A DNA stretch of 64,000 bases, from contig OX387188.1 in the NCBI GenBank assembly GCA_947561395.2, forward strand, positions 14,974,229 through 15,038,228, written 5' to 3'. The notes under the pieces were generated by a model that was given only the letters and a program-made list of their open reading frames with translations, was not told where the DNA came from and ran no database searches. The position numbers and the translations under genes are program-made. The stretch is from Buxus sempervirens. Its lineage: Eukaryota > Streptophyta > Magnoliopsida > Buxales > Buxaceae. Positions 11,150 through 61,793 of this stretch are shown here, piece after piece. Every line of letters starts with the position of its first letter. The first letter of the stretch is position 1.

Positions 11150-11394
11150 GTATCCGGCATTTAATGCCGGATACACTTGCTCCTCTTCATATCCGGACTC
11201 CAAGGCCGGATACAAAGATTTGCTCGGCGAGATTCGCGCTGATTCTCCGACAAATTCGCGGCGGAATCAATTTTACAAATTATTATGTTTTGTATCCGGC
11301 ATTTAATGCCAAATACAAACAAGGCTTAGTGTATCCGGCCTTGGAGGCCGGATACACAGGGGATATAGTGTATCCGGCCTTCAAGGCCGGATAC
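11150..11394. repeat. Five 25-bp CCG-N11-CGG dyads, 39-bp period
   Basis: Units start at 11150, 11189, 11292, 11331 and 11370. Spacing is 39 bp within each run, with a 103 bp gap between 11189 and 11292. The best units have perfect arms of 10-12 nt, GTATCCGGC... paired with ...GCCGGATAC, around a 1-5 nt centre. The array ends 12 bp before the TATA box of the LTR. Confidence 0.92.
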
Positions 11395-11405
11395 ATTAAT
11401 TTGGT

Positions 11406-11412
11406 TATAAAA
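11406..11412 (+). promoter_or_regulatory. TATA box of element 1 LTR
   Basis: TATAAAA followed by a G-run, about 1 kb into the LTR and directly after the dyad array. The equivalent position in element M carries TATAAAG on the minus strand, and the other LTRs carry TATAAATA, so this is the likely U3/R promoter. Confidence 0.7.
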
Positions 11413-12249
11413 GGGGGAAGCAGCCCCCTTTCCAATGGTTGGTCTACTTTGGGCTTTTTCCAAACATCCTTCTTCATTCGTACCCTTCCTCCCAGCACCC
11501 CATTTGGCTCCACCACCTTCCCACACCACCCCAAGCTACTCCCACCCTTCTTCTACCTTCTTCCTCTTCACCCACACTCAAACAAGGAGGAGAGCAAGGG
11601 CTGCTGCTGCAAAGGCAGAACCTCCAGCTGCTGTCCCAGCCACAAGGAGGTGTTTCCACTTTTCCCAGGGGTGTAAAAACCACCAGGTAAGGGTCCTCAA
11701 CACTTTGCATTCCATATATATCAAAATCAGATTTTTTTTTTGATTGGTTTTTCTCCTCTCTTATCCCCTTTGCATGAGTTCCTTTATGTGGTGGCTTGAG
11801 CATGTGTTTTGCTGTGTTGTCATGGCATAAAAACCACCGCAAATAAGAAGTCTATGTAGGTCTTTTAGGAAGCATGAGAGTTTTTTTTTATACCTTTCTT
11901 AGTAGCTTGTAGCTGTTGTTTTGGGCTTTATTTCCAGCAACTATTAGAGGAGCTTGTCCCTCTCCAATTCCATCTCATGTACCCCAATGTAAGCCCCCAT
12001 TTCCCTTCTTGTTTTCTTTTCTTTTTCCTTACTTCTCCTTGTGACTTTGCTGTGTGTTTTGCTTTGTTTTCTGCTTTCTTATTTTTATTGTTCTCTTGTC
12101 TTTCTCTTGACTTACTGCCATGTGATATCTTTCATTCCTTGTTTGGTTGCTGTTAGAGATACAAAGCATCCTGTCCCCCCCATGAACCTTGTTGTTTGTG
12201 GGTATTGATGTATGCTCCCTTTGCCTTTCTCACTAGTTGATATGGCTCA

Positions 12250-13480
12250 CCTGAGCTGCTGCTGGGAGCAGCAGCAGCACCCTCATCTTGGGTATACCAC
12301 CTCCACGCATGATAGGCATGATAAATCCCCATGCACAGCTGCTGTTTTTTTTTACTAGAGCCAAGAATGCTGCCATTTTTTATGCCTTCCCTACTCTTGT
12401 TAATTTGCTGTTTTTTAAGTGTCAAAGCATGCACCCTTTCCCCCTTAACTTGCTGTTTAATGGTGTTACCCCACCTCCTATGAGCATGATGTTCTTTCCC
12501 TGCTCACCTTTGCTGATTGGGTTCCCCAAAACCCAAGCAAGTTGCTGCTGGGGACAGCAGTAAACCCCCACTGTTTGCTGCTGTCCCAGCAGGTTGGAAG
12601 GCCTAAGCATCCCCCCCAAGCCTAGCCTCTTAACCCACTGTCATGCTCCCTAACCTTTTTTCCATTAACCCAAGCAAGTTTCTGCTGGGGACAGCAGTAA
12701 ACCCCCACTGTTTGCTGCTGTCCCAGCAGCTTTGAAAACCCAAAACCACCCCCCAAACTTGAGGTGCTGCAACACCTACCAGCGAGCCTTCAGCTCCATG
12801 AAAATATGCTCCCCTTGCCCCTTGTATTGTCATGACTTATATACGCACCAACAGCACCTTCTGCCCTTGGCAGTACACCAAACCCCACTCAAAACTTGTT
12901 GTCTAAGTTGCTGTCCCTGTACCCACAACAAGCTTTCCTTTTGATTTCTTGAGAATGTAGGTATGATGCATCTTCGTATTGAATTATTTTGATAAGTGTT
13001 CCCACCATACGCTGTTTTGGTTCATGAGTGTGCACACCTGAGTTGCTACTGGGAGCAGCAGTAGCACCTCCGTCCTCGCCATGTTACCTCCATGCATGCG
13101 TGTAGAACTCACTTGGTGGTTTGTTTGGTCTAGACACATGTTTTGTTTGGTTATTTGCCGTTTTTACATATATATGCAAGCATGCTCCTTTCCATGCAAC
13201 TTGCCGTGTTCATGTGAAATGCCATGCTCCCAACCCCCTAATCTGCTGCCATGGCTTAAGTAAGCTGCTGCCGGAGGTGGTGGCAGCACCTCTCATCCTT
13301 GGTGGCACACCAAGCATGTCCTAAACTTAATATACTGGTTGATGTCCCCCTTGTTTATAGTGGGTTTTGTTTACTTCCCATGAGCATGCAACAGGCCCCC
13401 TTTTAATTGTCCTTTTTTATAACACCTTGATGAGTATGCAAGACACTTTTGGGGCTGCTGTTGGCAGCAGCAGCAGCCCC
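12250..13480 (+). repeat. CTGCTG/CAGCAG hairpin-forming repeats in the LTR
   Basis: Inverted CTGCTG...CAGCAG blocks recur near 12255, 12543, 12577, 12680, 12713, 13040, 13265 and 13454. A 60 bp block at 12531-12590 is repeated with 137 bp spacing. Most blocks are followed by CACC and a short pyrimidine run. They lie downstream of the TATA box, so they would be in the transcript. Confidence 0.7.
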
Positions 13481-13760
13481 CATTATTCCAGGTTTTGATG
13501 GCCATAACCCCCCTTGGTGGCATGTTTTTCTGTCCATGGCTTTAACAGCAACCCCCATGCCCTCTTCTCACCTCTCATTTGTGGAGAAACCCAAGGCAAA
13601 CCAAGTGGGGGGCCTCTCCCCTAAACCTAAACCAATGTGGGCCCTCCTAGGGGCCCACATGACTTGTAGGAGGCCCTAGGAGGCCCAAAAGAGCCATCCC
13701 AAGGCCAAGGTCCCAAAAAGAGGCCAATTTAAGGTGATCCGGCCACATTAAGGCCAATGT

Positions 13761-13824
13761 GTAGCCGGCCATAATGGCCGGCTACATTAAGGCCAATGTG
13801 TAGCCGGCCATAATGGCCGGCTAC
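13761..13824. repeat. Second dyad pair of element 1 LTR, 39-bp period
   Basis: Two identical 25-bp dyads start at 13761 and 13800, with arms GTAGCCGGCCAT and ATGGCCGGCTAC around one base. They keep the CCG-N11-CGG skeleton, but T to G in the left arm is matched by A to C in the right arm relative to the 11150-11394 units. Confidence 0.92.
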
Positions 13825-14840
13825 ATCCCAAAAATGCCACTATGGGCTTTTTCATTGTTTGTGATGTTTTCCTTTGGTAGTTTACACCCAAACTATTAAA
13901 CCAATAGGGTTTCCGGGTGACTACCGGTCCGATTTGGAACAATTAGTGGGCATTCCAACGGGGCCCACCAAGTCCAATAAACTTCTTATGCATGCAATTA
14001 AGCAACTTAAAGTAATTAACTGAACCAAGTGGGCCAAGCCTAATGTGGCCCACCCCAAACTGGATGTGTGGAATGATATGTTTGAATTGCATGGTTTGGC
14101 CGAGACCTAGGGCTAGGGCCTATCGGGCCCGCCAAAGCCTATTAACCTAGCCAAGGAAGGGTGCAAACCCTAAGCCTCAAGGAATTGGGCTTTTTAAGCC
14201 CAAATTTGGACTACGGGCCCCAAGCCCAATGTCCAACTCACTTTGGCAAATTTAAACAAGATAAATCTAAAAATATTTTGGCAACTATCTTGGGGGCCCA
14301 CCCGAGGGCCCACAAACCAATGCAGTCCCACCTTTTGCATGGAAATCACTTAAAACTTCAAATTGAACCTCAAGTTAAAAATTAATTCACTAAACCAAAG
14401 CCCACAGGGCCTCCTAGGCTTAGACAAAGGCCCGCATTGGCACATGGGCTTACCCAAGCCCACCAAGGGCCCAGTGGGCCTTCCAACGAGGCCCACCCAG
14501 CCAGACTCAGATAACCTAAAGCAAATAAGATAAAATCCAAGGGACCCACACCACTCAGGTGGTCCCGACAGACTTAAACAAATTGCATATCGGATTAGGA
14601 ATCGGGTGAAAACCAAAGCAAGCTGACTCAAACCAGGGAACCCACGGGACCCGTCATCCGACGAGGCGGACTGGGGTATCTATGGACTTCCCCAGACCAC
14701 AACCGAGAACCAAACTTAGAATCTCAAGCCGCAGACCGAAAGCCCTAAATAGACAAGATTAGGCACCCAGGTGTCCGCCTGCACCCCATCAGGCGGTGGC
14801 AACTCCGAATTACCCGTGCCGTGTTTCCCACGCGCGCACA

Positions 14841-17143: not shown

Positions 17144-17162
17144 GTCCCCAGTGGAGTCGCCA
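17144..17162 (-). other. Primer binding site of element M
   Basis: On the minus strand this reads TGGCGACTCCACTGGGGAC, starting with the TGG that pairs with a tRNA CCA end, three bases after the LTR end. It is of the type reported for Ogre/Tat elements; I believe the primer is tRNA-Arg, but the tRNA was not checked. Confidence 0.8.
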
Positions 17163-18762
17163 GGCTGTGTGCATGGGAAATCGCACGGCGGGGCGCACGG
17201 ATTCTCGTGCGTGTCTCCGGGAGGGTAAAACGGTAATTTGGAGTTGCCACCGCCTGATGGGGTGCAGGCGGACACCTGGGTGCCTAATCTTGTCTATTGG
17301 GCTTTTGGTCTGCGGCTTGAGATTCTAAGTCGGTTCTCGGTTGCGGTCTGGGGAAGTCCGTAGACACCCCAGTCCACCCCGTCGGATGACGGGTCCCGTG
17401 GGTTCCTCCTGGTTTGAGTCAACTCGCTGATTTCTCACCCTTCACCCGATTCCTATTCCGGCATGCAATTTGGTTAAGTCTGGTGGGACCACCTGAGTGG
17501 TGTGGGTCCCTTCAATTGCTTTTATCTTGCTTAATTTAAGTAATCTGAGTCTGAGTGGGCGGGCCCCGTTGGAAGACCCACGGTGTCCTTGGTGGGCTTG
17601 TTTAAGCCCACATGCCTCTGGTGAGCCTCCATCTAAGCCTGGGAGGCCCTTTGGGCTTAGGTGAAGTGAGTTTGTTTTACATTAAGGTGCCATTTAAAGA
17701 TTTAAGTGTTATTCATGCAAAAGTGGGTTGGCATTGGTTTGCGGGCCCCTAGGTGGGCCTCGCAGTGGTGACCAAGTATTTTAACTTATCTCGCTTAGAT
17801 TTGCCAAAATGGACTGGACATTGAGCTTGGGGCCCGTGGTCCGAATTTGGGCTTGAAAGCCCAAGTTCTGTGAAGCTAGGGTTTTGAACCCTTGCCTGGT
17901 CGGTTAGTGAGCTTTGGTGGGCCCGGTAGGCCCTTGCCCTTGGTCTCGGCCAAACCATGCCTAAATCTAGACCAACATGCTTCAAAATTGGGCTTGGGTG
18001 GGCCTCTAATGGTGTGGCCCACTCATTCAGCTTTATTATCTTTATTTGGCAAAAGTGAGCTTGTCGGGCTTGTGGGCCCCGTTGGAAGACCCACGGTATC
18101 CTTGGTGGGCTTGGTTAAGCCCATATGCCTTTGGTGGGCCTCCACCTAAGCTTGGGAAGCCCTTTGGGCTTAGGTTAAATGAATTGATTTTATTTAAGTT
18201 GTTTAAATTGGGGATTTAAATGATTTTCATGCAAAGGTGGGCCGGTATTGGTTTGCGGGCCCCTAGGTGGGCCCCCACAAAGGTTGCCAAATATTTTAAT
18301 TTTTCTTGTTTAGATTTGCCATAATGGGCTAGTTATTGGGCTTGGGGCCTGTAGTCCAGACTCGGGCTAGAAAGCCTAAGGTTTCCGGGGTTAGGGTTTG
18401 AACCCTTTCCTTGTTCGGCTGTGGGCTTGGCAGGCCCGGTAGGCCCTTGTCCTTCGTCTCGGCCAAACCATGCTAATTATCGTATCATGCTACAAAAGGG
18501 CTTTTGGGTGGGCCGCATTGGGTTTGGCCCACCGAGCTTATTTAATTAATTTGCTTATTCACTAAATTACATGCACAAGAGTTCATTGGGCTTGGTGGGC
18601 CCCGTTGGAAGGCCCACTGTGTATCCTGTTGGACCGGTGGTCCATGTCTCATGTTGGGTTTCTGGGTGACTCGGAAACCCTATTGGTTCACTTGGTTTGC
18701 TTGGAAATATCATTTAAATGCAGCAAAAATCAAGGAGTACCCAAAAATGGCATTTCTGCCAT

Positions 18763-18904
18763 GTATCCGACCTTCCGGGCCGGATACACACAAGTTCTAA
18801 GGTAACAAATCGTGAAGGTCGGCTACGCACACAAGATAGTGTATCCGACCTTCAAGGCCGGTTACACAGCAGTCTCAGCTGATCCGACTTGAGTTGTCGG
18901 ATCA
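18763..18904. repeat. Four 25-bp dyads at exact 39-bp period in M LTR
   Basis: Units start at 18763, 18802, 18841 and 18880. The first and third read GTATCCGACC...GGCCGG(A/T)TAC. The second is eroded but keeps the register (GTAACA...GTCGGCTAC). The fourth has changed ends (GATCCGAC/GTCGGATC). The exact 39-bp register is kept even where the sequence has decayed. Confidence 0.88.
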
Positions 18905-20682
18905 GTCTGAAACTGCTCCTTTTGGAGTTTTGCAAGTGGGATGACTCTTATGGGCTTCTCAATGGGTTACTAGGGCTGTGTGGGACCTTGCAAAGGCCCA
19001 CCAGGGTGCTGGAGTTGTGGAGTCTCCAGCTCTTGGTCTCTTTTGGGTGGTTTCTACAGCAAGTAAAGGAGGGGGGAGGCATGGGAAGTTGCCTCCTCCA
19101 TTTTGGATCATATATGCCAATAAATAGGGACCAAGGTGTCCATGTTTGGTCTCTTAGATTCCACCAACAGCAAGCATAATTGATGATGCAACCCAAACTC
19201 AAGAGATACCTAAAGCATGCTCCATGACATGAAATGTGCATGCATGTTTCCATGTGCATCTTGCACGGGGCAGCAAACATTTGGGCTCAAGTTTATGCAA
19301 AGTGGAGAGGGTGGCATGGACGGGAATTGACCTAGCATGCTACTATGGGGTAGAAAAGTTTGCACTTGGTGTGTGCAAATGTGCAAGCATGTAGTACAAT
19401 GGTGTTAGAAGTGAGTAATCAGCATGTTATGGAAACACAAAACAGCAACTAACTCTCATGAGAAAATCATCTAACACAAGGGCCTAAGGCCTGCCTCAAC
19501 CCTAGGTAATGTACACTCATGCTTCCACATACACCTTGGGGGAACAGCAACTCATTCATGCACTCCAAAACCAACAAGACTCAAGTGAAAAGCCACTCGG
19601 TTTGTTTCTAAAACAAGGGAGCTTAGGCATGCATTCACGACAACCAAGCAACAAATATTTCATGTAAGCACCACTCAAAAGTGACTAAAGGGACCTGCTG
19701 TTGGGAGGGGGCAGCAACTTTAAAGGAGGATGAGGATCATGCATTGGGTGAAAGGAGCATGCCGAAATCACAGCCATGAGCAGTAATGGGCAAACAGAAA
19801 ATAACCGGCACAAAATGAGGAAACAACCTAACATACACAGAAGATGTGAGATTAACACTAACATTAGCATGTATCCTCACATGGTGGCATCTTCAAGCAA
19901 AAGTAATAGGAGGTGGTTGTGTTCCCACCTCCCACAAGTGGGTGCTGCCAAAAACCATTGAAGCCACATGTATGCATGAAATAAAATCAGCAAAAAGGCC
20001 ATACACTTGCGAGAAGAACATAAGGAGAACCATGACCTAGCATGTATTCCCTACAAATCTTAGCAAAATCTGAACCTAATCTCATGCTTAAAACAGCACC
20101 TTGGGGACACTTTATACTTCAAAAGAAACAACAAAAACTTCCTTTTGCATATTGTGCACTCTTCCCTTACCATGGAAGATGAACCACCCTTGTAGGATCA
20201 CGAAAGAGAGGGGAGGAGAAGAAAAAAATGGCAAGGATCATGCATAGGAAAAAGAAATGCACCACATGTAACATGCAACATGCTCCAAATGAATCACTTT
20301 CTACATATGTATAACATACTACACCAAGGGTGCTCACCTTGCGGTTAGAACTTTGTTTGAAATGTGCTAGGCTTGCTTTGAAGCCAAAATAGTGGCTGGA
20401 CAGCACCTTGCACCTTCTTCTCCAAGCACCAAGTTCCACTAAGCTCCTTCCTTAAGTCTCAAAGTGAAGAAGGGAGAGAATGGGGAAGGTTTTAGAGTGG
20501 TTTTGAAGGGTTTTAGGGGGCTGGTGGTGGGTTAGAAGGGCAAGAGAAGGGTTGGACGAATGGGGGTTTTTCTTGAGAGGAGGTAAGTGGGAGAGATGGG
20601 AGAGAATGGGTTGGAAGAGATGAGTTGGGAGAGATGGGAGCAACAAAATGAGCTCCTCCATACGTATGGTGTGGAATGGGGG

Positions 20683-20689
20683 CTTTATA
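20683..20689 (-). promoter_or_regulatory. TATA box of element M LTR
   Basis: TATAAAG on the minus strand, about 1.03 kb from the LTR start, followed by CCCCC as in the element 1 LTR. Confidence 0.55.
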
Positions 20690-20699
20690 ATGGGGGTAA

Positions 20700-20995
20700 T
20701 GCATGTGATATGCATGCATGCATGGGGGGAGAGAGAGAGAGAGAGAGAGATGAGATGCTTGCATGGTGCATGCATGAAGGATGGATGCTCATGGGGGAGA
20801 GAGAGAGAGAGAGATAGATATGCATGCATGGATGATGCATGATGCATGGGGGGCATGCATAGGGAACATTAATCATTAGAGGGAGAGAGAGAAAAAGTAT
20901 GCATGATGCATGCATGTATGATGGTGATGATGCCCATGTGGGAGAGAGAGGGAGAGAGAGATGTATGAGGGGTGGCATGCATGGGTGATGCCCAT
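20700..20995. repeat. Compound (GA)n and (TGCA)n microsatellite block
   Basis: Four tracts of GAGAGA of 10-24 bp alternate with self-complementary TGCATGCATG runs, forming a diverged repeat of roughly 80-110 bp. It occupies the place just upstream of the TATA box that carries CCG-N11-CGG dyads in the element 1 LTR. Confidence 0.85.
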
Positions 20996-21029
20996 GCATG
21001 CCCATAGGGGACATCAATCATGATCAAAT

Positions 21030-21300
21030 CCTGGTATTTGTGGATTGGTCCCTGGAACTTTGGATTTTTACAAATTTAGTCCCTGATACCTTTGGACATT
21101 TACAGATTTAGTCCTTGATACTTTTTATATTTACATATTTAGTCCCTGATACTTTTGGATATTTACAGATTGGTCCCTGGGATATTTGCTCAAGTTTTTA
21201 TACTTATGGATCTAGTCCCTGATATCCTTGGATATCTGCAGCTTTACCCTTGAGATATTTTTCATTGATTTGGGTAATTACAGATTTAATCCCTGAGACC
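21030..21300. repeat. Diverged ~30-bp tandem repeat in M LTR U3
   Basis: About eight diverged copies built around TTTAGTCCCTGATAC and ATTTACAGAT. The element 1 LTR has a shorter related set on the other strand at 10995-11130 (GGGACTAAATTGTAAATA). It lies upstream of the TATA box in M. Confidence 0.75.
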
Positions 21301-21714
21301 TTTTTGCTTTGCTGCTTGCCACGTGTGCAGCTTTTCGACACGCTGCCCTAGAACTTCAACTGCTTACATCTCCTTCATCCGAACTCCGATTTGAGCAAAC
21401 TCAATTGCGTTAGACTCGTATCGGAGCCCTCTATCCAATGACATAGGGCTAAGCACTTGGCACGGGGTTCGAGGAAAAGTCAACTTTCGGCTCTCCTTTA
21501 AGTTTGACCGGCCCGCAGAACCTTCATTCGGACTCCGATTCCAGCAAACTCAGTTGCGTTGGACTCGTGTTAGGATTCTATATCCATTGAGATAAAGGAA
21601 GGTGGCCAATTATCACTGGATCAAAAAGTCAAATTTTCACCCTTTATGGTTTGACTTTTCAGCCGGGTTTTGCATTTCCGGCTTTTCCGGGAGTGCAAAA
21701 ATGAGGTGCTTACA

Positions 21715-23064: not shown

Positions 23065-23608
23065 CAAGTTGTTAGCACCTGATTTTTGCACCCCCAAAAT
23101 GAAAAGTCAAACTAAAGTCAAACCCTGATAGGGTCAAAAAATTGACTTTTTAATTTAAGTAAATTTGGCCATCAAACTTTATCTCATTAAAAAGAGCATT
23201 TCGACACGGTTCCAACGCAACTGAGTTTGTTGGAATCGGAGTTTAGATGAGAAAAATATGAGCTGGTCAAACTTTTGGGGAACAAAAAGTTGACTTTTTG
23301 CTTGACCCCAATTCAGCTGCCAAACTTGATCCCAATGGCAAGGTGGTTTCGAGCCGGTTCCAGCGACGCTAAGTTTACTGAAATCGGACACCGGATGAAG
23401 AAGTTATGGGTAGTTGAAGTTTCAGAAAAACTGCCCATGTGGCAAAAAGGCAGCAAAAAGTGGAATAAACCAATAAAATAAATAAAATAAATATTTTAAT
23501 AAAGCCAATCTCGCTTTATAATAAAATAATCGGAAAAATCAAAACAAAATCTTGCAAAAAATCAAATTGAATAAAGGTTTGAAATCCAAACATTTTAAAA
23601 ACGTGCTG

Positions 23609-23822
23609 GACCATATTTAAAATACGGGTAGGGTATGCTCGTATTTGAAATACGGGCAGGCTTCTAGAAGAGGACGCGCATCACTGTACGGCGGGACACG
23701 CGTCCCGTATGTCCGATTCTGCGAGATTTGCGAATGTGCGTTTTTCGCCCGTATTTGAAGTACGGGCAGGGATGCCCATACTTGAAGTACGGGCAAGGCA
23801 TGCCCGTCTTTTAAATACGGGT
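23609..23822. repeat. 21-bp CCG-N11-CGG dyads, 28-bp period
   Basis: Units start at 23609, 23637, 23747, 23774 and 23802, with typical arms GCCCGTA and TACGGGC around seven bases. Spacings are 28, (110), 27 and 28. The last unit ends 15 bp before TATAAATA. Confidence 0.9.
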
Positions 23823-23837
23823 ACGACCTTTTTTGCC

Positions 23838-23845
23838 TATAAATA
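23838..23845 (+). promoter_or_regulatory. TATA box of the solo LTR
   Basis: TATAAATA, preceded by GCC and followed by GAGAGG. The same TATAAATA context occurs in the LTRs at 44778 and 57705. Confidence 0.7.
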
Positions 23846-24657
23846 GAGAGGCCACCCCCCTCATTTGGACAAGCCTTCCCCTTAGGCCGAATCCCTCTCC
23901 CTCCTTGAAGTTCCTACGGCCAACCCCTGCCCAAACTTTGTCTCTCCCAATACCTAAACCCATTTAATACCCAAAATGCCCTTGTCATCCCAAAACCATG
24001 CCTAAACCCCCAAATGCCTCTTTTTAAACCCAACCTCCTACCAAACCCCTTTTAAAATCAACCTAGAAAATCTCAGAGGACGCGGAAGCACTGCTTAAAT
24101 TGTCGGAGGACCCTAACACCAATCAAACAACTAATTACATTGTAAGTATGTTCTTCCTCTAAATTAAGTGAATTTTGATTTTATTTTCCTCTTCCTCACA
24201 ACCTCTTTTCATTTTTATGTTATTTCTAACATGTTTTGAGTGTTGTATATAATGAGGAATTGCATCCAAAATTAGTCATTCTTATGCAAAAAAGAGGTGA
24301 TAACAAAGGGTTATAAAAAATGCCTCAAAAAAGGAAATTTGACCCCATTTGATCACCATTATGGGAAGAAGATTGAAGCCCTTTTTGAACATCTGATATC
24401 CCCTGTAAATTGCCCCTTTCCCATTCCTAAAAATTGATGGTGAATAACCAAGAAAGGATCTTGCTTACTCAAAGAACAAAAAGAAGGGAAAGATGGTCAT
24501 TTGGACCAAAAGAAGAAAATGCAGTATATTGAAGGAGCTAGAACCATCACAGAGGTTGCCGAAGCACCCAAGGAACACACCGGAACAGATCCCAAGCTGA
24601 ATCGGCACCAGAAATGCAAAATTGGCCACGTCCGTAAACTCAGAACGGTCCGGGCAT

Positions 24658-24733
24658 GCCCATATTTGCTTCACGGGTGAGCCGAACCGAATTTCATTTA
24701 CGGGCAAGGGCAGCCCATATAACAAACACGGGC
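24658..24733. repeat. Second cluster of 21-bp dyads in the solo LTR
   Basis: Three eroded units start at 24658, 24685 and 24713 (spacing 27 and 28). The right arm ACGGGC is best kept. The cluster lies downstream of the TATA box, as in the element 1 LTR. Confidence 0.75.
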
Positions 24734-25543
24734 CAGTGTAAATATAACTTAAAAAATATAATTTTAGGCCCAGTTGGACCCATTCCGACCCGAATTGGCT
24801 TGACCCGGCCCTATAAGGTTATTTGGGCTATTTTTAGCCCATTAGAAGACCATTGGCATAGATGGGCCCACCAAGACCCACCTTGGGCCCACTTGAGTGG
24901 CCCACATTTTGACCGGCCCAAACCAGGCCTGTTTTCAATAAACAGGCCCAAGCCCCTTGACCCTTGGCTAATGGGCCAAATCCAAGCCCATCAAGCCCAA
25001 ATAAAAAATGTAAATAAATAAAGTTTAAATAAATAACCAAATGGGCTACCCAATAACCCAACTGGGCCCCAGGCCCAACCATGGCAACCCTCGGGTCTTC
25101 CAACGGGACCCGAGTCCGACCCACTCCACTAAATAAAAAGATAAAATCAAAGTAAAAGGGACCCAAACCTTCAGAGGGCCCTGCCAGACCCAATAAATAG
25201 CATGCTAGTCTAAGAAGGGTGAGATTGACTCAAAAACTAGGGAGACCTGAGGGACCCATCAGACCGACAAGGCGGGCTGGGGTGTCTTAGGGCTTCCTCA
25301 GACGTAACCGAGGACTTAGCTAGAACTCTGAAAAGCTGTAGACCAGTCTTAGACCTGGATAGGGCAAACACCGTGTTTGCCTGCACCTCTCAGGCAGTGG
25401 TGACTCTGAAAGTCCCGAGGCACGCACGAACCTCCACGTGCGCCTCGTGTACGATCTAGGCCAGAAATAGGTGCGCACACAAGTAATCAAGCTAATAAAT
25501 CAATTGGGAAAGAAAACAACTCGAAAATCTGTTTCTGGCTTAA

Positions 25544-25630
25544 AACCACCCTGAGTATGTGGTTTCTTGCATTTTGGCTACAACCGCAGGATTGATGCGG
25601 TTTGAGCCAAACCGTTCTGAGTGCGCGGTT
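25544..25630. repeat. Three AACCGC-type 21-bp dyads in the leader
   Basis: Starts 25544, 25582 and 25610 (spacing 38 and 28). The first is AACCAC/GTGGTT, a two-sided change from AACCGC/GCGGTT, so symmetry is kept. They match the dyads in the antisense-gene promoters and in the LTR of element 2. Confidence 0.88.
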
Positions 25631-26329
25631 TTAAGCCGAAATTCTGTTTCAGCCATCCTTAACTAACAGTCCTGGATCCTTTCATCCCTAAGTGATATAA
25701 GCAAGTGGTCAGGGGTTCCAAACAAGATTAAAGGCACTTAAATCTCCCAAAACTCATCTAAATCAAGAAATCAAGATCATTTTGAACATATTCACCTAAA
25801 TTGAATAAATTAATCAAACTCAAAGGTGAAAATGACAAAGAAAAGTTTGTTCAAATATGAAACCAGGTCAGGCACCGCAATTCGAGGGTTAAGCTCGTAT
25901 CAGGCTCTTTTCACCTAATTTGAACACTTAACCCATCTTAATTGAAGTGATTAAAAGAGAATTGGTTCAAATAACCAACCCAATCATACTTCAACCTCAA
26001 AAATTGAATTTGGAAATAACCATAAGCTGTCAAAACATATTTTAAGCTTAAAATGCAATCCAATAATAAGGAGGAAACTCAACCCATTTTTAAAATGGAT
26101 CAAATTCCAAATGAGAAATCTTTCATAATAAGGTGTGCAAACTTTTAAGATTTCTCCCCAGAGAGTAATCCGTTTCATAGGTCACTTGGAAACCTTTGAA
26201 TTCCAAGCAAATAATCTTTGAAAACAAAAAATAAATAAATAAAAGAAAATCTTGAAATCATCTCCTTGAAAGTAAATTGAATTTCTTTCTAATTCAAAAC
26301 ACCTAAAGGGGGAAATCAAAAATATTTTA

Positions 26330-34207: not shown

Positions 34208-34214
34208 TATAAAA
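34208..34214 (+). promoter_or_regulatory. TATA box of the solo LTR in integrase
   Basis: TATAAAA followed by GGGGGG, in the same context as in the element 1 LTR. No CCG-N11-CGG dyads were found just upstream. Confidence 0.6.
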
Positions 34215-39400: not shown

Positions 39401-39518
39401 AACCGCATACTCAGAATGGTTGTACCTGAATCGCGCCAAATGTGCAGTTACATTTTCGCGAAGTTTAAAAACCGCGGGATAAGTGCAGTTCTTGCACAAC
39501 CGCTCTGTATGTACGGTT
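39401..39518. repeat. AACCGC-type dyads at the antisense gene B promoter
   Basis: Starts 39401, 39429, 39470 and 39498 (spacing 28, 41, 28). The second has become TCG...CAG, two transitions. A compact CCGC...GCGG dyad also lies at 39365-39377. Confidence 0.88.
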
Positions 39519-39757
39519 TTTTCACAAAAACAGTTTTTTCCTCTTTCTTTTAATAAGTCATGTTTCCAAAGATACCTGTTACCTGTGTAGCAGTTATATC
39601 ATGATAAGAAACAAATAAAAAGCAAAAAAATAAAAGAAAAGAAGCAAAAAATGAATAATTTTCTCTTTTATATACACATGCAAATGAATACATCAGTTTT
39701 TATATATACAAGTGTCAGATGTAAGAAGGAAAAGAATCCTAATCTATCTCTTGCAGG

Positions 39758-42700
39758 TCAATCCCCATCGCCTCCGCCTCGCCGTCGCCATCGGATAAAA
39801 AAATGATCTGAGAAACGTGGGCTGGCAGGAGAAGATGGGTCAGCAAGAGTAGAGGGACCAACTGTAGGAGGCAAATCGACTGGAAGCACCGGCTTGATTG
39901 GAGGCACCGGCTCAACTAAAGGGATTGGAACTGGATCGTCCAGACCATCATGGATAAGATCCATGAAGCGGGAAACCGAGGTATCTGTCGCCAAGGGGAC
40001 CAGGTCCAAAACCCGAGAATCCTCAGCAGCGAGAGATGAATCAACGTCTATAGGCTCTGCTGCCTCACGGACCTCTGCCACCTCAGGCTCGGGCACATCA
40101 TGCACATCCTCCTCCATCGCAGGCTCGGCTGCCACAGGGAGCTCAGAAACCTCAAGGCCACCCTCTTCTGGCTCAGTGGCAATCAAAGGATCCTCCTCTG
40201 GCTCAATAGTCTCCGGCTTAGGAGCACTCTCAAGCATAGAGGTAACCTCCGGCAGCTCGACTGGCTCTGGAACGGCAGCAAAAGTAGCCTCTGCCACTAT
40301 CTCTGGATCTCTCTTCGGAATCTCTGCAGCCTCTACAGAAAGAGATAGGGTACGGGAGCTGGATGGCGAAGCTGCCAGATCCTCCTGAAAACAAAAAAAG
40401 CCTAATCAAAAGCAGAGAATATAAAAGATTAAAAGCAGAAACTGAAAAGGATAGAAGGATGACCTAGGCTCCTGAAAGCCCTGCCTGGTCCTGAGCCCTG
40501 GGTAGCTGAGCCCACAAATCAGCAATAAAAGCGGCCTGCCCAATGATGATGACGTCGCTCTCAGCTATAGCAACGTCTCTCTCTGCCAGCTGACTCTCCA
40601 GATCCGCATAGCGAGCTCGGATCTCCCCTAACTGTGCCTCCTGAAATAAGAAGAAAAGGACATTAGCAATTTCAAATATGGGAAAAGCTAAAAGAATAGA
40701 GCAGGACGGGATTCATACCATGGTGTCATATAGGCGGATCACCACCCCTCCAATCTCGGTAACTCCACCTCGAACGGGCATGGGCTGCATAAGACAACCT
40801 ACTAAGACCTGCCCGAACTAGGCATCATAGTCACCCTCTGCTAAGTGTATCACCAGCCTCCCAATCGCCAAAATGGGCTGGATCGAATGGACCGGGAGGG
40901 GTGACAGGTTCCGTATCTGGAGGAGCCACAGGGATCCGGAGCTCACCGGTGTGCTGAAAGTAGAAGCGCTCGCCGAGGTACCATATGCTACCCAGCTGCC
41001 CGATGAAGAACGGGTACCTCTGACGCTACTCATCTAGAGTGAACGCCTCATCTACAAATGGCTGAAAAGCCAACTCATCATGAAGGCCATCTAGGCGGGG
41101 GACAGATAGCTGAAAATAAACAAAGATGAATATCAGATTCTTGAAAAAAAAAGAAAAGAGAAAATAAGAATAAGTGGAATCCGTGAAAGCCTACCTCTAT
41201 CCTAAAGGTCCTATCCGAGTGAGCCCTGGCCGACCTAGGGCGACTCTTCTCAGAGTCGCGCTGAATCTGACTCCATCTACGTGCCACAGGGAATGTCCCC
41301 TCAGGCAGTGTGGAAGTCAAGCGAAAGTGGGTCACATAGACCCGAGCAAAGAATTGAAAGAGAAAGAAAAAAGAAGATAAGAAAAAAGAAAAAGAAAAAA
41401 AAAGAAAAGAAAAAAAAGGAAAGAAGAAAAGAAAAGAGAAATGAATTCATACCTGCAGAAAGGGCCAGAAAAACCTGCAGCCAACCCCAGCACCTCAACC
41501 AAGTCCGGGAAATGCGACTGATCCTACTCCTATCCCACGCCTCCACTGGCATCTCCTCATATCCTAAAAGCTTGGCAATCTCCAAATCGGCCGGCCTATC
41601 CAACTCAGTGATGACATCTCCAGTCATCCTAATCCCGATAATGAGAACGAAGTCAGAGGGACGAATCCCAATCTCTACGTTAAGCAAATGGAAGCTCAGG
41701 GTCTCTGGAAAAAACAGCTCCATCATAGCCGCTATCAGAGGACGATCCTGACGAACGCTGGTGATGGTGATGAAGGGGCCGAACCCAAAACAGCCCATCT
41801 CTTGACGCAAAGGAGTCGAACATACAGCCACTGTCTCGGCAAAAAGAGCCCAACTCCTGTGATAATGAAAAGACGGGTAGACAAGGGGAATGTCAGCCCT
41901 GACGCCCGCTGAAGGGTGCGTCCTCAGATCATGGAGAAGAGAAGTATCTTGGACCTGATTTGCTATCTCGACAGGAATAGCAACGCGGATCGCCCGAGCC
42001 TCTGCCCTACCTCTACGGCGAGCCCCGCTGCGACCTCGGTAGCAGGCTAGAAATGCAAACAGAATGAGGTCAGGTTAAAGGTTGTAAGGGAAAGGCTTGG
42101 TTGTTGAAAAGAAAAGAGAATACCTCCAGGGTTGGCTCCTGCGAACCCCCAGATGCTCCAGAATCTGAATCTGAAGCCTCCAAACTGCTGGGAGAAGAAG
42201 GATCAGGGTCCTCCTCAGCCCTAGAAGAAGATGCCACATTGGCCGGGTCCCTCCAAACCCTCAAAGAGGAAGGCTCATCTGCGGGACCCCGAGAAGCGCG
42301 ACATTGCGAGCCATCTATAAGACCAATTGCAGAGAGAAATTCATTATGTGTTTACATTTGAAGCCATTATATTTGCTTTCATGTTTCCGTTAATTTGGCT
42401 CTTCTTTAGACTAATCAATTCTACGTGGTTTGCAGAAAAATGAAGATCGGAAGAAGCACTTCAAAAAGTGCCCGACTGAACCAAGATTGGATTTCTTTTA
42501 GTCTTTAATATTGTTTTTATTATCCTTATTATTCATAATATGTATAAGAATTATATATAGAAAGTAAAATTCCTATATATCCTTTTTATATGCAAAAAGA
42601 AAAAAGAAAGAAAGAAAAAAAAAGAAGAGAGACTGTGAAAGGAGTTTTTAGGAGCCTAATTTCATTTCTAAAGGTTGTAGAACTCTAATGTGTCTACAAA

Positions 42701-43788: not shown

Positions 43789-43848
43789 AACCGCATAGAC
43801 AGAGCGATTGATATTTAAATTGCCAAAAACCGCATGTTCAGTACGGTT
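43789..43848. repeat. Two AACCGC-type dyads upstream of antisense gene A
   Basis: Starts 43789 and 43828, exactly 39 bp apart. The second is AACCGCA with right arm ACGGTT. They lie immediately upstream (minus strand) of the TATA-like box of gene A. Confidence 0.85.
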
Positions 43849-44181
43849 AGCACCCAAAAAATGAATTTTCAAAACTTTTTCCATTCTCGTTCAAGAGATT
43901 TGTGTCCAAGATAGTTGTGAATTGCAAGAAACACCACGCTATCAATTTTTGTTTTAAAAATTTGCTCAAATCTCACTTCATAGCCACGAGCGCTCTGTGA
44001 GACGCGAGAAGAGGATTTGCCCCTTAAGGTTAGGGACTTTTTAGCAGATCTCCTAAACAAATTCTTTTTCCAAAAATCATATTTTTGAGTTCTTGCAAGT
44101 CATGATTGAATGGACATAATCTTGGGAAGCGCAATTTGCGGGTCTTTTTGCTCTCCACTGTTAATTGATTCCAATTCCAGC

Positions 44182-44194: not shown

Positions 44195-44308
44195 TTGTAG
44201 ACACCCCAAATTGCACTTCAATATGAGAGAAAAATCAAAAGGAATTTTAAATGTTTTATTTGAGCTTTGGCATGTGTCAAAAACTCAAAAATACTCAAAA
44301 AGGGTGCT

Positions 44309-44576
44309 AACCACACTGAATATACGGTTTTTGAGAATTTGGTCTCAACCGCCCCGTGTATGCGGTTGCGACCGCACACACAGGACGGTTGAGGTTTATG
44401 CTTCTTGCGTGAGTTGTCATGTGGCTTCTAGAAGCTTTGGCCGTTAAGCCACGTCGACAGCAATCATGAGGAGCGTAACTAAATTGGAACCGCCCTGTAT
44501 GTGTGGTTAAGGTGAGTTTGCATGAAAACCGCATATAAGGTGACGGTTTTGTGGAAACCGCACTGTATATGCGGTT
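44309..44576. repeat. Six AACCGC-type dyads in element 2 LTR
   Basis: Starts 44309, 44347, 44370, 44488, 44527 and 44556 (spacing 38, 23, 118, 39, 29). The last is perfect over 8 nt (AAACCGCA/TGCGGTTT). The one at 44527 carries a one-base insertion. They lie about 200-470 bp before the TATA box. Confidence 0.9.
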
Positions 44577-44777
44577 TTGCTTGTTTCGGAGATTTGTGAA
44601 AAGGCTCGATCTTTGAGCCTTATTTAAACATATTACCTCTCTCTCGGGGACTTGAACTCCTTATTTCACCCTCTGAAACTTCTAGATTTACATCAATTCA
44701 ATGCTTTAACTTGAATTAGAACAATCTAGAGAGTTTTTTGGGCATACCCTTGGGACTTTATTGCCCTTGGTTGTGCC

Positions 44778-44785
44778 TATAAATA
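44778..44785 (+). promoter_or_regulatory. TATA box of element 2 LTR
   Basis: TATAAATA in the context GCC...GAGGGGTCCTCCTC, shared with 57705-57712 in element 3. Confidence 0.7.
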
Positions 44786-46610
44786 GAGGGGTCCTCCTCT
44801 TGCAAATGGCTACAATTTGAAGCTTAGAAGCTCTGCAAGAATAGGAGAAATTTTGTTGGATTGTCTACTCAAGTCATCAAAGGTAAAGCTCTATTTACAT
44901 TTCCAGCTTCCTCTTTACATTTCCAACCCCCATCTTCTACCTTTCTGTAATGTAAGGCCCTGAGTGTCTTTTTGAAGCCACAAACCTCTTCCAAAGTACC
45001 TGAGAATTCTCTCTAGCCGTAAAACGTGAAGAGAGAGCCTTGGGAAAAAGAAGTAAGAATGGATCTTCTAGGCTTAGAACCCACATACAATGAAGAGCAT
45101 GCAATTTGGTTATTTTGAGCCTATGGTTGAGTTCTCTGATGTATTGTGCATTTGTTTGTAGAAGAGATCTACGAATCCTTGCTCTCATAGCAATGGATTC
45201 CAGCCTTCTCCTAGAAATTTGATTTCCACTACCACCAAGCACACTTTTTACTATTTTATGCAAGGATAAGCTAGATCTTGGATTTCCATGTTTAATATGG
45301 ACAATCTGGGATCATTGGCTTTAGAATGAATTTTAGAACTTCATGAGGTTGTTTTTCATGGTTTCCAAGTGTTTTGGTCAAATCCACTTGCACACATGCA
45401 CAGGTTGTGGTCTTTTATTCAAAAATCTTCAAAACAGGGCAGCATCTGTGGCTTGTCTTGAAATGCTTATAACTTCATCCTCCAGATGAATTTTTGAGTG
45501 ATTCCAAAGATGTGTGATAGATGGGATAGCCTACTTTGTATCTGGAAATTTTCGTTCATTTTTATGAAGCCAATTTTTTACACCATTTGTTTAAAGTCTA
45601 TAAGTCAGTTCAGCCCAGATTGCTGAACTTGCCGCTTTGATGGTGCACCATTTACTCAATTTTAATCCGTTTTGAATGATTTCAGTCTCTGTGTTTTCCT
45701 TGAGGAGTCTATTTTCCATTTCAACTAGTTTCAACAGATTTTGATTTGATTTGTGGCTGGTGTGCTTGATTGACTCAGAGTGGCTCTGCAACAGAGTTCT
45801 GTGTTAATCTGTGATCCTGTAGGCATGTTCAAGAGGAAACACAAGTCACAAATGGATGGAGTTTGGTGTAAGGCCTATTTCGTTTGAAAGATAGCACCAT
45901 ATACTTCATCCGTGCAAGTTTTTACGAATTTATATGGAGCCAAACTCCACAAATAAATTTTCAAAAATGCTTACTCGCCGCTTTTCTCTGAGTTACAATA
46001 GCAGATTTTCATAGAATATTTCTCTCTTGTTTTAAACCGGAATGAGCTGATTTTTTCATAGAATACTCTATTTTGTACCAGTTATTAAATGGCCCTGGTT
46101 TCATTTGATTTGGATTTAAATCAAGTGATTTATGGTTGATCGAAGTCTCAAGTTCTTATAACTTGATTTTTCCAGATTTACCTTAGCTTGATTTTTCTTC
46201 ATTTTTACTTTGATTTTCATTCACTCGTGAAGTTATAGAAGTGGTATATCCATGAGGAGAGTACAAATTCATTAGACTACTCATGTGGAATAATCACATA
46301 TATTTGCTTATTTTTAAGCATCCTTTGTCTATTTTTTATTAGCAAGCAACCCTTAGCATAAGCAAGCATGTGGCAACCGTCTTAGACGGATGAGTGGGGG
46401 TGCCTAACACCTTCCCCCGCTCATAACTAATTCCCCTTACCTGATCTCTGGATTTTTCCTTGTATTAGAGCTACCTTGGCTCTATTTGGCATTTATGAAC
46501 CCTTTGGTGTCCATTCACACCCTAACTTGGATGGTGGCGACTCTTTATTTTTACCGATCCCCGTGTGACGATATAGGAAGTCATCTTAGGTGACATTTCT
46601 ATGTCTCACA

Positions 46611-57435: not shown

Positions 57436-57538
57436 GTATCCGACAAATAATGTCGGATACAAAAGATCTTTATTGTATCCGACAGATAATATCGGATACA
57501 AAGAGAATTGCTTGTATCTGACCTGACATGTCGGATAC
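57436..57538. repeat. Three 25-bp dyads, exact 39-bp period, element 3 LTR
   Basis: Starts 57436, 57475 and 57514. Arms GTATCCGACA/TGTCGGATAC; including flanks the first is perfect over 12 nt per arm. They end about 165 bp before the TATA box. Confidence 0.92.
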
Positions 57539-57704
57539 AAGCGTTTTGCTCAAAATTAGGGTTTTCCGAAAGTTTTCACTTTTTACCATCACATCCTTCA
57601 TTAAAGAAGTGGAAATCTCGGAAATAGCCTTAGGGTTAAGGTTGGTGGACTCTAGACATCATTTTGTGTCTACCATCATGCAAACCCTAACCCTAGCCTT
57701 TGCC

Positions 57705-57712
57705 TATAAATA
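57705..57712 (+). promoter_or_regulatory. TATA box of element 3 LTR
   Basis: TATAAATA in the context GCC...GAGGCTCCTCCTC, shared with element 2. Confidence 0.7.
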
Positions 57713-59772
57713 CGAGGCTCCTCCTCAAGCTAATGGCCATTAACTCTTGCCAATAACTTTTGCCAAGAAGTTGGAGATCAAAGAGCTCCGAGTGAAGAGG
57801 GGAACCGCTGCAGTCTTGCTTCCAGAAGCCCAGGTAAGCCTCAAACCTCTCTTTATTTTTCTGTTTTTACATTCTAGATCTAGATCTCTTCTCCTACCTT
57901 TCTGTAGAATAAGGCCTCTTCTATGTGTGTGAAAACCCTTCCCCTACTCAAAGTACCTCGAGACTCTCCCTAGCCATAAAACGTGAAGGCGGGATCTAGG
58001 GGAAACGAGACTGGGGATTGATCCTAGTGCTAGAACCTTGATTGGAATAAGCCTTTTGATTCTATGAAAACCGTTTCATATTCAAAGTACCCCAAGATTA
58101 TCTTGAAGAACCGTGTGTAACGGGGAGAGAGAACTAAGGGAAACGATAATGGAACGGAACCCTAGGTTGTTTTAGAACCCCATTTGATTGATTTAAATGC
58201 ATGCTATATGTTATTGTATTGTTAAAGAATGGACATAGCACTTGTTTTGTCGGATTTGGCTTGTATTTTGGATCTATTGCCGTCATTGTGGTAGATCTGA
58301 AATAAATATCCTCTAACAATTCTGGGATATTTCTTATTGATTTCAAGCAAGTTTTGTTGAGTATTGAAGGCCTCTAGGTTCAACCTCTCGGTTTCGGGCA
58401 CTTTTGCTCAATATTGGGTCTTTTTGGCATATTCTCTCCAATCGGAGAGAATGGTAAGCCAAGCTTGTGCCCTATTTTTCCTAGAGGTTCTTCAACACTT
58501 TTTCAAGTGATTTTGATTCATCTTGCACGGAACACACACACTTGGTCACTGTTTTAAATTGATTTTACTCAAAAGTGGTAAAACGGGACAACATCTGTAC
58601 CCCAATTTCGGACACTCGTAACTTCATCGTCCGGATGAATTTTGGAGTGATTCTAGAGCCATGGGAAATATGAGGCTGTCTAGTTTATGCTTGTAAAAGT
58701 TCATGAATTTCTATCAAGCGAATTTTTGACACCTCTCTGTCGAAGTTGATAGGACAATTCAGATCTGAATACGGAACCTGTCACTTCGACTGAGCGCCAT
58801 GTGTTCGTTTTAAGTCTGATGCGAGTGATTCTTGTTTCTGTGTTTTCATTTGGAAGTCTAGTTTTAAATCCAGTTGATTTCATAATTGTTTGACTCCATT
58901 TGTGTCGTGGGTAGCAGATTTACTCAGAACTGCTCAACAGAACTTTTCTGGGCAAACCTGTGATCCTCGGGGCCTGTTCGGGAAATCACCCCAGGCACAT
59001 CCGAATGAATTTTTGTATGAGGTTAGTTTCATCTAAAAGATGGCCATACATACTTCATTCACACCAAATTTCATAGATTTATATGGATCCAATTGTTCTA
59101 AATAATTTTCCAAACTTGCCCACTTGTCACTTTTAACTATCTCCAACAGCACTTTTAAAGGAGGATAACTCTTAGGTTTTTAACCGGATTTAATTGCAAA
59201 TTTGCATGAGTCTTCTATTTATCATAATCTTTCAAATGAATTTGGTTTGATTTAATTTAAATTGGATTTGAATGATTTTAAGACAAATGATACTATCTTT
59301 TACCAAATTTCCCGGATTTGACTCAACTTGGCTTTATGCAATTTTTGCTTTGATTTCTATTTATTGGTGATATTCCAGAAGTGATATTGACATAAAAGAG
59401 GATCTGGAATCCAATTGGATTTCTCATGTGAAGATATCACACATTTGTTTAATCCTTTTTCAAGGTTTTTAATGATTTTAGCAAGCTTTCTTACTTTTTT
59501 AGCATGAACAACACTTGGCAACCACCTTGTGTGGGTGAATGGGGGTACCTAACACCTTCCCCTGTTCATAATCTAATCCCCTTACCCATCTCTGGATTTT
59601 ATTTGCAAGTAGGGTTATTTTTACTCTAGATTTGCCTTTTTGCTTATTTTGCATCTTTTGGTGTCCATTCACACCCTTAAAATTGAATGGTGGCGACTCT
59701 CTAATATTTCTGTTGAACCTATGTGTTGACGGAGGGGAAATCATCCTAGGTTATTTTTCCATGTCTCACAAC

Positions 59773-59791
59773 TGGCGACTCTGTTTAGGAC
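59773..59791 (+). other. Primer binding site of element 3
   Basis: TGGCGACTCTGTTTAGGAC, two bases after the LTR end. The first ten bases match the M site except one; the middle has diverged. Confidence 0.75.
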
Positions 59792-60039
59792 TTGTGGATT
59801 TAAGCCATTTTGTGTATTTGTTCATGCTTTTTCTTTATTTTTGAATGCTTGCTACTTTACCTATTCTATGTGCGCATATTGTTGTATTTCAAATCTGATT
59901 GGGATGCTTTAAAATTTACATGGATAAAGGCCTGTGTATATTGTTTGATTATGCCTACAATCATGTTTATGGTCTTATCTCGGTGTACATGCCTACTTGT
60001 ATTTTTATACCTCGCTTTGGGGGGTTTTAGTGCCATGTT

Positions 60040-60690
60040 TTGAACATGAAAATGAGGTGCATAAATTCAGTAAACTCAATGGGTATTGTTGGGGGTTTCC
60101 AAGCATATTTTCCCCAATTCAAACCTTTCTTGTGCCATATTTTTAGTTATTGAATTTCTAAGCTTTGATTTGGGTATGAATAAGGCATGTTGAGCACAAA
60201 AATGAAGAATACAAAATCTGGAAATTCAGTGGGTAATTTTGGGATTTTTCAAGCATGTTTTCCTCAACAAAACACCTCTTATACAATACATTTAGATGCT
60301 GTATTTTTAGGCTTGGATTTGGGCATAAAACAATGTAACTTTAGCACAAAAATGAAGAATACAAAATCTGGAAATTTAGTGTAGTCTTGGGAATTGTCAA
60401 GCATGTTTTACCTAATCAAAACCCTTCTTGTACCATGATAAGTAGTTGCTGGGTTCTTAGGCCTTGATTTGGGGTATAAATAATGCACTTTGAACATGAA
60501 AATGAGAACCTTAAAACCCAGAATTCAACAAATATTTTGAGGAGTTTTCAAGCATGTTTTCCCTGGTTAAAAGCTTCTTGTACAAAATGCCTAGTTGCTG
60601 AATTTTTAGGCTTCAATTTGGGTAGAAAGAATGCACCTAGAGCATGAAATCTAGAAATTTAAGTGATGTTTTGAGGTTCAAGCATGCTTC
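60040..60690 (+). repeat. Tandem ~150 bp repeat in element 3 leader
   Basis: Diverged copies start near 60040, 60190, 60340, 60490 and 60630. Each contains a variant of GAACATGAAAATGA, then TTTTCAAGCATGTTTTCC, then GGGTATAAATAATG. Confidence 0.7.
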
Positions 60691-61651
60691 TATGGTTTAA
60701 TTGTTGTTTGCACAATATGATAACATGTTTGTATGCTAATTTTTGGTATGTAACAATTGTGTACATATTTAGATTGCTTAGGTTAGCTTCCTTGCTTACG
60801 TTTTGCTTTCATTATAATGTCATATATGCCTTGGCTTGAAATTGTATGCATGACTACGGAAAAGAGTGGCAAGGGGCTGGGACGTTGTGAATGTACCTCA
60901 ACTTTAAATGCACTTGAGCACTTTAAACACTTTTCACAGCTTACCCATTACCTACAGGAAGTTGAACCCGAATGTGTGTAGCTTGGCGCACCGAGGTCGA
61001 TACTTCGGAAAGTGAAAGTGAAAACATTTACCTTAGAATTAGAGTCAATGATGTGATGACAATGGGATCTGTGATTCGATTCCGGGCATCACTATACTTG
61101 AGTTCTAAGTTGCCAATTAAGCTAAAACCCAAAAACCATACGCTTGAAGGTGGAAAAACACGTTTTCAGCTAAAAGTTCACAATTGCGTTTGGGGAATTG
61201 GGTGTAAATGTGGGAAGGCCGTTTGCAAGTTCACAGGCCAAGGTATAATATGAATACCATATTGAAGGTAACACAAGGTCGCAAGGTAAAGCCATGTATT
61301 CTTTTATCTTCATGTAAATTAAAAACCATGGTGTCCATATGGTTGGGAGGAAATTTTTCCCAAAAATGTTTGTAGCCTATGATTGGTGTAACCCATAGGA
61401 TGAGTTTCCAACTCAATTTAAAGGTCATCCTATCCAAAGTCCATGTAGGAGGCAACCAAGTGTACAAGATCCATAAATTGGTGTGTAACTGTCAAAGGGG
61501 CAAGTACCCTCATGAATGTGCATATTTTGCAAGTATAGTGTCAAAGTCCAATTGGGGACTATTTTTGAAGGCCAAGTCAAAGTGAACATCAAGTGGGAAT
61601 GAAAATAACATAATCTGGTGAAAAAATGAGTCGAAAGGGGCCATTTCGGCA

Positions 61652-61793
61652 TTAACCGACAACTCAGGTCGGTTAAACAGAGTTTTATTCGTATCCGACA
61701 TATTCCGTCAGTTACAAAGGCTTATGCGTGTATCCAATCATTTGTGTCGGATACAATAATACATAGCCTTAGCCGACATATCATATCGGATAC
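61652..61793. repeat. Four 25-bp dyads, exact 39-bp period, element 3 leader
   Basis: Starts 61652, 61691, 61730 and 61769. The first has arms TTAACCGAC/GTCGGTTAA, the others variants of GTATCCGAC/GTCGGATAC. The two arm types differ symmetrically. Confidence 0.92.

Follow-up and report, generated by a model that had tools for sequence, protein, structure and literature searches.

The subject of this report is a 64,000-nucleotide stretch of the Buxus sempervirens genome (the window; contig OX387188.1, positions 14,974,229 to 15,038,228, forward strand). The plant DNA of the window contains nested Ty3 retrotransposons, and associated with them are arrays of one dyad skeleton, CCG-N11-CGG. The elements are here called A, B and C, and four long terminal repeats (LTRs), L1 to L4, form by sequence similarity a single family named T1. 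The arrays are a real, statistically strong and unusually geometric dyad family. In all, 47 units, with scores from 7 to 11, were called in 13 hand-bounded intervals (10 scoring 11, 11 scoring 10, nine scoring 9, 11 scoring 8 and six scoring 7). They fall into three motif types:

Type I: GTATCCGRC and near variants, in L1, L2 and element C.
Type II: AAAACCGCA, in element B and L4.
Type III: GCCCGTAT, in L3.

The arrays, with distances in base pairs (bp), are as follows:

11150..11395: array L1a1, type I (GTATCCGGC), five units, upstream of the TATA box of L1.
13761..13826: array L1a2, type I (GTAGCCGGC), two units 39 bp apart, in the 3' part of LTR L1.
18763..18905: array L2a, type I, four units, every spacing 39 bp, one unit scoring 7.
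23609..23825: array L3a1, type III (GCCCGTAT), five units with 27/28 bp spacing and one break of 110 bp, upstream of the TATA box of L3.
24630..24740: array L3a2, type III, four weak units (scores 7-8 only), spacing 28/27/28 bp.
25544..25655: leader array of element B, type II (AAAACCGCA), units at 25592, 25620 and 25644, with 25554 in an earlier list.
35043..35125: array L4a2, type II, two strong units 28 bp apart.
37088..37205: array behind pol of element B, type II, four units, spacing 28/39/28 bp.
39401..39520: array between antisense open reading frames (ORFs) of element B, type II, three weak units (scores 7-8 only).
43789..43850: array of element B, type II, two units 39 bp apart.
44309..44580: 3' LTR array of element B, type II, six units, upstream of the TATA box of that LTR.
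57436..57540: 5' LTR array of element C, type I (GTATCCGAC), three units 39 bp apart, upstream of the TATA box of that LTR.
61652..61795: leader array of element C, type I, four units, every spacing 39 bp.

The exact dyad occurs 35 times in the window, where 30 dinucleotide shuffles averaged 2.2, and every other CCG-CGG gap from 0 to 30 occurs one to nine times; 28 of the 35 are units of the clusters and seven are isolated. In a scored search over positions 1-62450, with 10 shuffles as control, 36 units reached a score of at least 9 (30 inside the clusters and six outside; shuffle mean 2.2, maximum 4) and 22 a score of at least 10, a level absent from the shuffles. The excess narrows at scores of at least 8 (88 units versus 28.1) and is weak at scores of at least 7 (194 versus 145.9), so units scoring 7 count by their location in clusters only. 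Intact CCG is found in 75 of the 94 half-site cores and other cores in 19; the unit at 25554 (CCA/TGG) is absent from the final list because neither of its cores is exact. The clusters claimed by the original prediction are thus real, with dyads at all 13 of the places it listed, and the comparison of density with shuffled sequence, run here within the window, located the enrichment at gap 11. Its figure of about 48 units agrees with our 47, but its count of 12 clusters has to be corrected to 13, the number that its own list contains; its attribution to all three element families holds if the three are understood as the T1 family of LTRs and the elements B and C. As a separate observation, two isolated dyads with an inner, polyadenylation-like AATAAA lie at apparently matching places in L3 (24929-24945) and L4 (35306-35322), the former reading CTG...CAG and the latter CCG...CGG, with both arms changed.

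Neighbouring units stand in register. There are 34 adjacent centre distances, 30 of them within 17-60 bp, and 28 of these 30 measure 27-29 or 38-40 bp (exactly 28 bp in nine cases and 39 bp in 15). The off-register distances in this range are 23 and 24 bp, and the remaining four are 69, 103, 110 and 118 bp. When the count was repeated over positions 1-62450 without cluster coordinates, the satellite tail being excluded, 66 units gave 24 adjacent pairs at no more than 60 bp, 21 of which were in register, against a maximum of 1 in 40 shuffles. Dyads with gaps of 9, 10, 12 and 13 yielded 15-27 units and 0-1 adjacent pairs each. The 39-bp register was found with motif types I and II and the 27-28-bp register with types II and III. 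The 28-bp distance is double the 14 bp between half-site centres, and a further 11 bp, roughly one turn of the helix, gives 39 bp; such a register is consistent with proteins in contact along the DNA. In the reversed order, CGG-N-CCG, smaller peaks appear at gaps 22 (14 occurrences), 11 (13) and 9 (11), the peaks at 22 and 11 arising because neighbouring units stand 39 and 28 bp apart.

The spacers between phased units are mostly unlike one another. For the 39-bp register, the 10 spacer pairs from the same cluster have identities of 0.25-0.56, and spacers from different clusters 0.33; for the five-letter spacers of the 28-bp register the corresponding values are 0.40-0.60 and 0.47, so recent tandem copying is not the full cause of the register. 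As a control, pattern scans of IMG/VR viral contigs for two motif types returned no phased arrays among the matches listed: at least 124 stretches with a type I or II dyad (1.16 Mb) held 158 dyads with at least 4/7 arm matches and, among these listed matches, a single adjacent pair within 60 bp (43 bp). The phasing of units is an addition to the original prediction and strengthens the reading of a dimeric DNA-binding protein.

The two arms of a dyad change together. In the 35 exact cores, which were picked blind to their arms, own-arm complementarity was 4.49 of 7 non-core positions, compared with 2.42 when right arms were randomly redealt (maximum 3.57), and none of 5000 permutations reached the observed value. 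The best unit of each cluster (n=13) gave 5.08 versus 2.65, again with 0/5000, a figure biased upwards because these units were chosen by score. Across the 47 units pairing drops at offsets 1-2 and past 13, which points to a half-site of about 9-11 bp; note that offsets 4, 5, 9, 10 and 11 were part of unit selection, so their pairing is flattered. Each unit is consequently described as a dyad of two half-sites of about 9-11 bp with core CCG, the core centres lying 14 bp apart. Mismatches between arms comprise 21 G/T and 37 A/C, and this lack of a G-U excess does not favour a stem in sense-strand RNA. Symmetric arm change at a constant half-site distance, as originally proposed, is therefore supported by the permutations and by the single peak at gap 11. 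Of the two causes offered for it, a dimeric DNA-binding protein is the better supported, by covariation and phasing, and the selected stem, for sense RNA, is not favoured by the mismatch counts.

Motif type follows the element. Every element with several arrays keeps a single type (B in 5/5 arrays, C, L1 and L3 in 2/2 each), L2 and L4 having one array each. Over the 78 array pairs, similarity was 0.57 within elements (13 pairs) and 0.31 between them (65 pairs), and 18 of 20000 label permutations were as high. Eight of nine matching-position pairs between elements differ, scoring 0.09-0.29; these include the arrays of B and C upstream of the TATA box (44309/57436, 0.25), those in the B and C leaders (25544/61652, 0.29) and those of L1 and L3 upstream of the TATA box (0.21). 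If L1-L2, L3-L4 and B-C are nearest relatives, at least three changes of type would be required.

In four of the 13 arrays (L1a1, L3a1 and those at 44309 and 57436) a strong TATA box in the sense direction lies 9-196 bp downstream:

11404..11415, plus strand: TATA box after L1a1 (GTTATAAAAGGG), 9 bp downstream of the array.
23836..23847, plus strand: TATA box after L3a1 (CCTATAAATAGA), 11 bp downstream of the array.
44776..44787, plus strand: TATA box after the array at 44309 (CCTATAAATAGA), about 196 bp downstream.
57703..57714, plus strand: TATA box after the array at 57436 (CCTATAAATACG), about 163 bp downstream.

Compared with 2000 random places, each of these has a p of 0.011-0.016, with no correction for the 26 looks taken. 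A minus-strand TATA-like site 11 bp left of the array at 43789 is weak (p 0.25), which leaves the idea of an antisense promoter there unproved. The observed/expected ratio of CpG is 1.24 in the arrays and 0.51 window-wide, and it exceeds that of the flanks in 13/13 arrays; because 77 of the 122 counted CpGs sit in dyad cores, the excess is largely the dyads themselves. Position and composition fit a promoter role in part. L2 carries GA-rich tandem repeats at 20593-21021, about where L1 has its upstream array, and no such array was called in L2.

The elements and LTRs that carry the arrays were assigned as follows:

255-833: element A gag.
3786-6761: element A reverse transcriptase (RT) and RNase H.
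7074-8219: element A integrase.
10423..14840, plus strand: LTR L1 (T1 family), assigned to element A as its 3' LTR, the ends inferred from TGTAAGCACC and GCGCGCACA and by comparison with L2-L4.
17166..21714, minus strand: LTR L2 (T1 family), followed by a sequence like a primer-binding site (PBS), TGGCGACTCCACTGGGGA, at 17145-17162.
23070..25479, plus strand: solo LTR L3 (T1 family), flanked on both sides by the target-site duplication CAAGT.
31643-32605: element B RNase H.
32811-33344: element B integrase zinc-binding domain.
33335..35849, plus strand: LTR L4 (T1 family), with flanks AAAAT/AACAT (4/5 alike).
35841-36248: piece of the element B integrase core, its match below the cut-off.
44196..46610, plus strand: presumed 3' LTR of element B, with a purine tract just before it at 44182-44195.
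End at about 59770: 5' LTR of element C.
59773..59783, plus strand: PBS-like TGGCGACTCTG, directly behind the end of the C LTR.

The domain order of element A (gag, RT, RNase H, integrase) is that of Ty3. In element B the insertion of L4 splits the integrase region, and the gag region is recognisable only by 61% DNA similarity to that of element A. Given the PBS-like site, the sequence behind the C LTR was taken as the leader of element C, part of which (60658-61486) is similar to 21832-22695, the presumed leader of element B. Both A and B have a dual RNase H (RT_RNaseH and RVT_3, each above cut-off), which is described as a criterion of the Tat lineage of Ty3/Gypsy (PMC9289625); on this criterion of domain content the elements are here called Tat-like. 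When ORFs of 8300-10450, 14800-17200 and 44900-62450 were compared with element A and with the region behind pol of B, only self-matches of A were found, and the RT of element A had no confirmed relatives in viral contigs. Elsewhere in the window, cytochrome P450 gene pieces at 51249-53653 are the sole host-type gene among the scanned ORFs, a short element-like stretch at 47710-50858 has ends (47710-48544 and 50024-50858) that are 94% identical, and a satellite-like tandem array occupies 62480-63999 (period 125, higher order 373 bp). No tRNA gene was detected in the window by a scan with bacterial settings.

Two antisense ORFs stand behind pol of element B and before its 3' LTR:

38542..39114, minus strand: ORF with DUF7745 (PF24924, 7.3e-14) and weak similarity to the plant mobile domain (PMD; PF10536, 2.4e-7, under the curated cut-off).
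41304..42074, minus strand: ORF with weak PMD similarity (PF10536, 8.9e-6, under the curated cut-off).

Comparison of the two gave no significant match (E 0.10). For the former, 64 candidate relatives included none at E <= 0.001, PDB offered no relative at E <= 1, and a single-sequence AlphaFold model was unusable (mean predicted local distance difference test score, pLDDT, 37.5). None of the four tested antisense ORFs behind pol of element A matches the PMD, though A carries arrays. Antisense TRP28 proteins of Retand have been proposed as possible DNA binders (PMC11963269) and PMD-A clades have been reported as exclusively Gypsy-encoded (PMC5418596), which makes the antisense protein a candidate and no more. 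The candidates for a dyad-binding protein are element-encoded (the antisense PMD-like ORFs) or a host factor family.

The closest known system is the repeated-motif (RM) boxes of Sireviruses (Bousios 2010, PMC2829016), and not, as originally suggested, the VANDAL transposons with their VANC proteins. RM boxes are described as palindromic and high-copy with a CGG-CCG core, clustered upstream of the LTR TATA box and again before env, and as forming CpG islands. They share with the present arrays the LTR cluster, a second cluster elsewhere in the element and family-specific flanks around a constant CGG/CCG signature; the present arrays are CpG-rich as measured by the observed/expected ratio of 1.24. 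Their clustering in the LTR near the promoter is matched here by 4/13 arrays, the other nine being without a strong TATA box. Sireviruses, however, are Ty1/copia elements, and the elements here are Ty3 (A with gag-RT-RNase H-integrase, B with RNase H and then integrase pieces). Most of the described boxes have the consensus CGG...CCG with variable gaps, unlike the CCG...CGG with constant gap 11 found here, and no fixed unit-to-unit register like the present one was met in the available sections of their description. There, palindromic CGG/CCG boxes are called Sirevirus-specific in comparison with classic retrotransposons (PMC2829016).

The analogy with VANDAL and VANC survives in its working logic and fails in motif form. 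VANDAL elements also have dense arrays of short motifs in their non-coding parts that differ between families, and these extend to introns and upstream regions. They are nevertheless DNA transposons, and their VANC21 sites are nine bases long and in the same orientation, with no dyad in the consulted part of the description (Hosaka 2017, PMC5735166); membership of our units, which are dyads, in the VANDAL class was rejected. The VANDAL protein is known and tested, a motif-binding and methylation-lowering product of the element itself (PMC5735166), whereas here only the DUF7745/PMD-like antisense ORFs of element B are available for comparison. Retand, a Tat element, likewise carries tandem arrays and, in the interval from pol to its 3' LTR, antisense ORFs for which DNA binding has been proposed, but the antisense domain is TRP28 and not DUF7745/PMD; the main text of its description uses none of the words dyad, hairpin, inverted and mobile domain, and palindrom appears only in a reference title (PMC11963269). 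MAIN/MAIL1 and the Gypsy PMD-A clades resemble the present case in that PMDs occur in Gypsy elements with a link to silencing. The promoter motif 'DOWN' (CATGCAGTTT) tied to MAIN/MAIL1/PP7L bears no resemblance to the dyads, and direct DNA contact of that complex is left open in the accounts consulted (PMC5418596, PMC7156037, PMC9899485). Among the titles and abstracts listed, a coverage that misses most subscription papers, none describes dyad arrays of this kind for Tat, Ogre or Retand.

We therefore propose, with a probability of roughly 0.66, that the clusters serve these Tat-like Ty3 retrotransposons as cis-acting arrays of operators, recognised by a DNA-binding protein that is dimeric and probably oligomerises. 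A homodimer would bind each dyad unit, and neighbouring dimers would touch, or be so placed on the DNA, that mainly the 28- and 39-bp registers work. Binding upstream of the TATA box, in the downstream part of the LTR and in the leader would activate or de-silence the element. The preference of the protein for the bases flanking CCG would vary by element and be common to all arrays of one element, site and protein, or the choice of protein, changing together. Several observations weigh against this proposal. The whole analysis covers one window of one genome, and the element and LTR assignments are inferred from similarity among decayed, nested elements. Nine of the 13 arrays are without a TATA box at p <0.02 in either direction, and L4 keeps its TATA box with no array seen upstream of it, so an array would not be required in every old copy. 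One matching-position pair between elements, L1a2/L2a, is alike at 0.64; the arrays at 25544 (0.37) and L3a2 (0.41) are internally loose; and types I and II each span two LTR families. Arms within a cluster are nearly as similar as the two arms of one unit (4.40 versus 4.68), Tandem Repeats Finder (TRF) reports 39-bp repeats in L1a1, L1a2 and the array at 57436 and 28-bp repeats in L3a1, and part of the agreement in spacing may come from tandem copying.

The similarity of arms within clusters and the repeats reported by TRF are what would be expected if one dyad per element had been spread by tandem duplication and gene conversion, spacing and type being inheritance and not function. That the spacers mostly differ while cores and register persist, that identical registers recur across motif types, and that both arms differ jointly between types make this explanation improbable. 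A similarly low probability attaches to dyads selected or tolerated as RNA hairpins, whether as precursors of hairpins or small interfering RNAs or for RNA packaging. All seven folded array stretches were more stable than each of 200 shuffles (z -4.1 to -12.3), and palindrome clusters of maize Sireviruses are reported to attract small RNAs (Bousios 2016, via PMC10760457). A hairpin, however, needs neither a fixed N11 nor 28/39-bp phasing, four of the arrays precede a TATA box, no Rfam family reached its gathering score anywhere in the window, and the mismatch counts, while compatible with a stem on the antisense strand, reveal no surplus of G-U pairs for the sense strand.

Who supplies the protein is a question within the operator proposal. 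It is possible, though we hold it only tentatively, that the arrays are bound by host transcription factors from a single dimeric family, of which each element has adopted its own members in a form of enhancer hijacking with no element-encoded partner. Such a sub-case would agree with motif types that cross LTR families (type I being shared by L1, L2 and C, and type II by L4 and B) and with the comparable CGG-CCG boxes of Sireviruses, which match mainly stress-related cis-elements (PMC2829016). It would also agree with the LTR arrays of element A, whose tested antisense ORFs are devoid of PMD matches. To our knowledge, no plant factor has a CCG-N11-CGG dyad with such long half-sites, which counts against it, and one type across all arrays of an element would also be expected from a co-evolving element protein. 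The latter possibility, a self-encoded, VANC-like activation or anti-silencing system in Tat elements, in which the antisense PMD-like protein would bind the phased arrays of the LTR, the leader and its own promoter region as oligomerising dimers, with specificities switching together, we regard as unlikely.

The arrays are a stricter, phased form of palindromic LTR boxes. That a Ty3 lineage has them suggests either that a class of host factors is shared or that one solution evolved repeatedly. With its constant 14/28/39-bp geometry the system makes a candidate binding protein testable, and the motif types, uniform within an element, provide a natural series in which to follow how retrotransposon promoters and their binding proteins co-evolve. 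The antisense ORFs of Tat elements could gain a function from these arrays.

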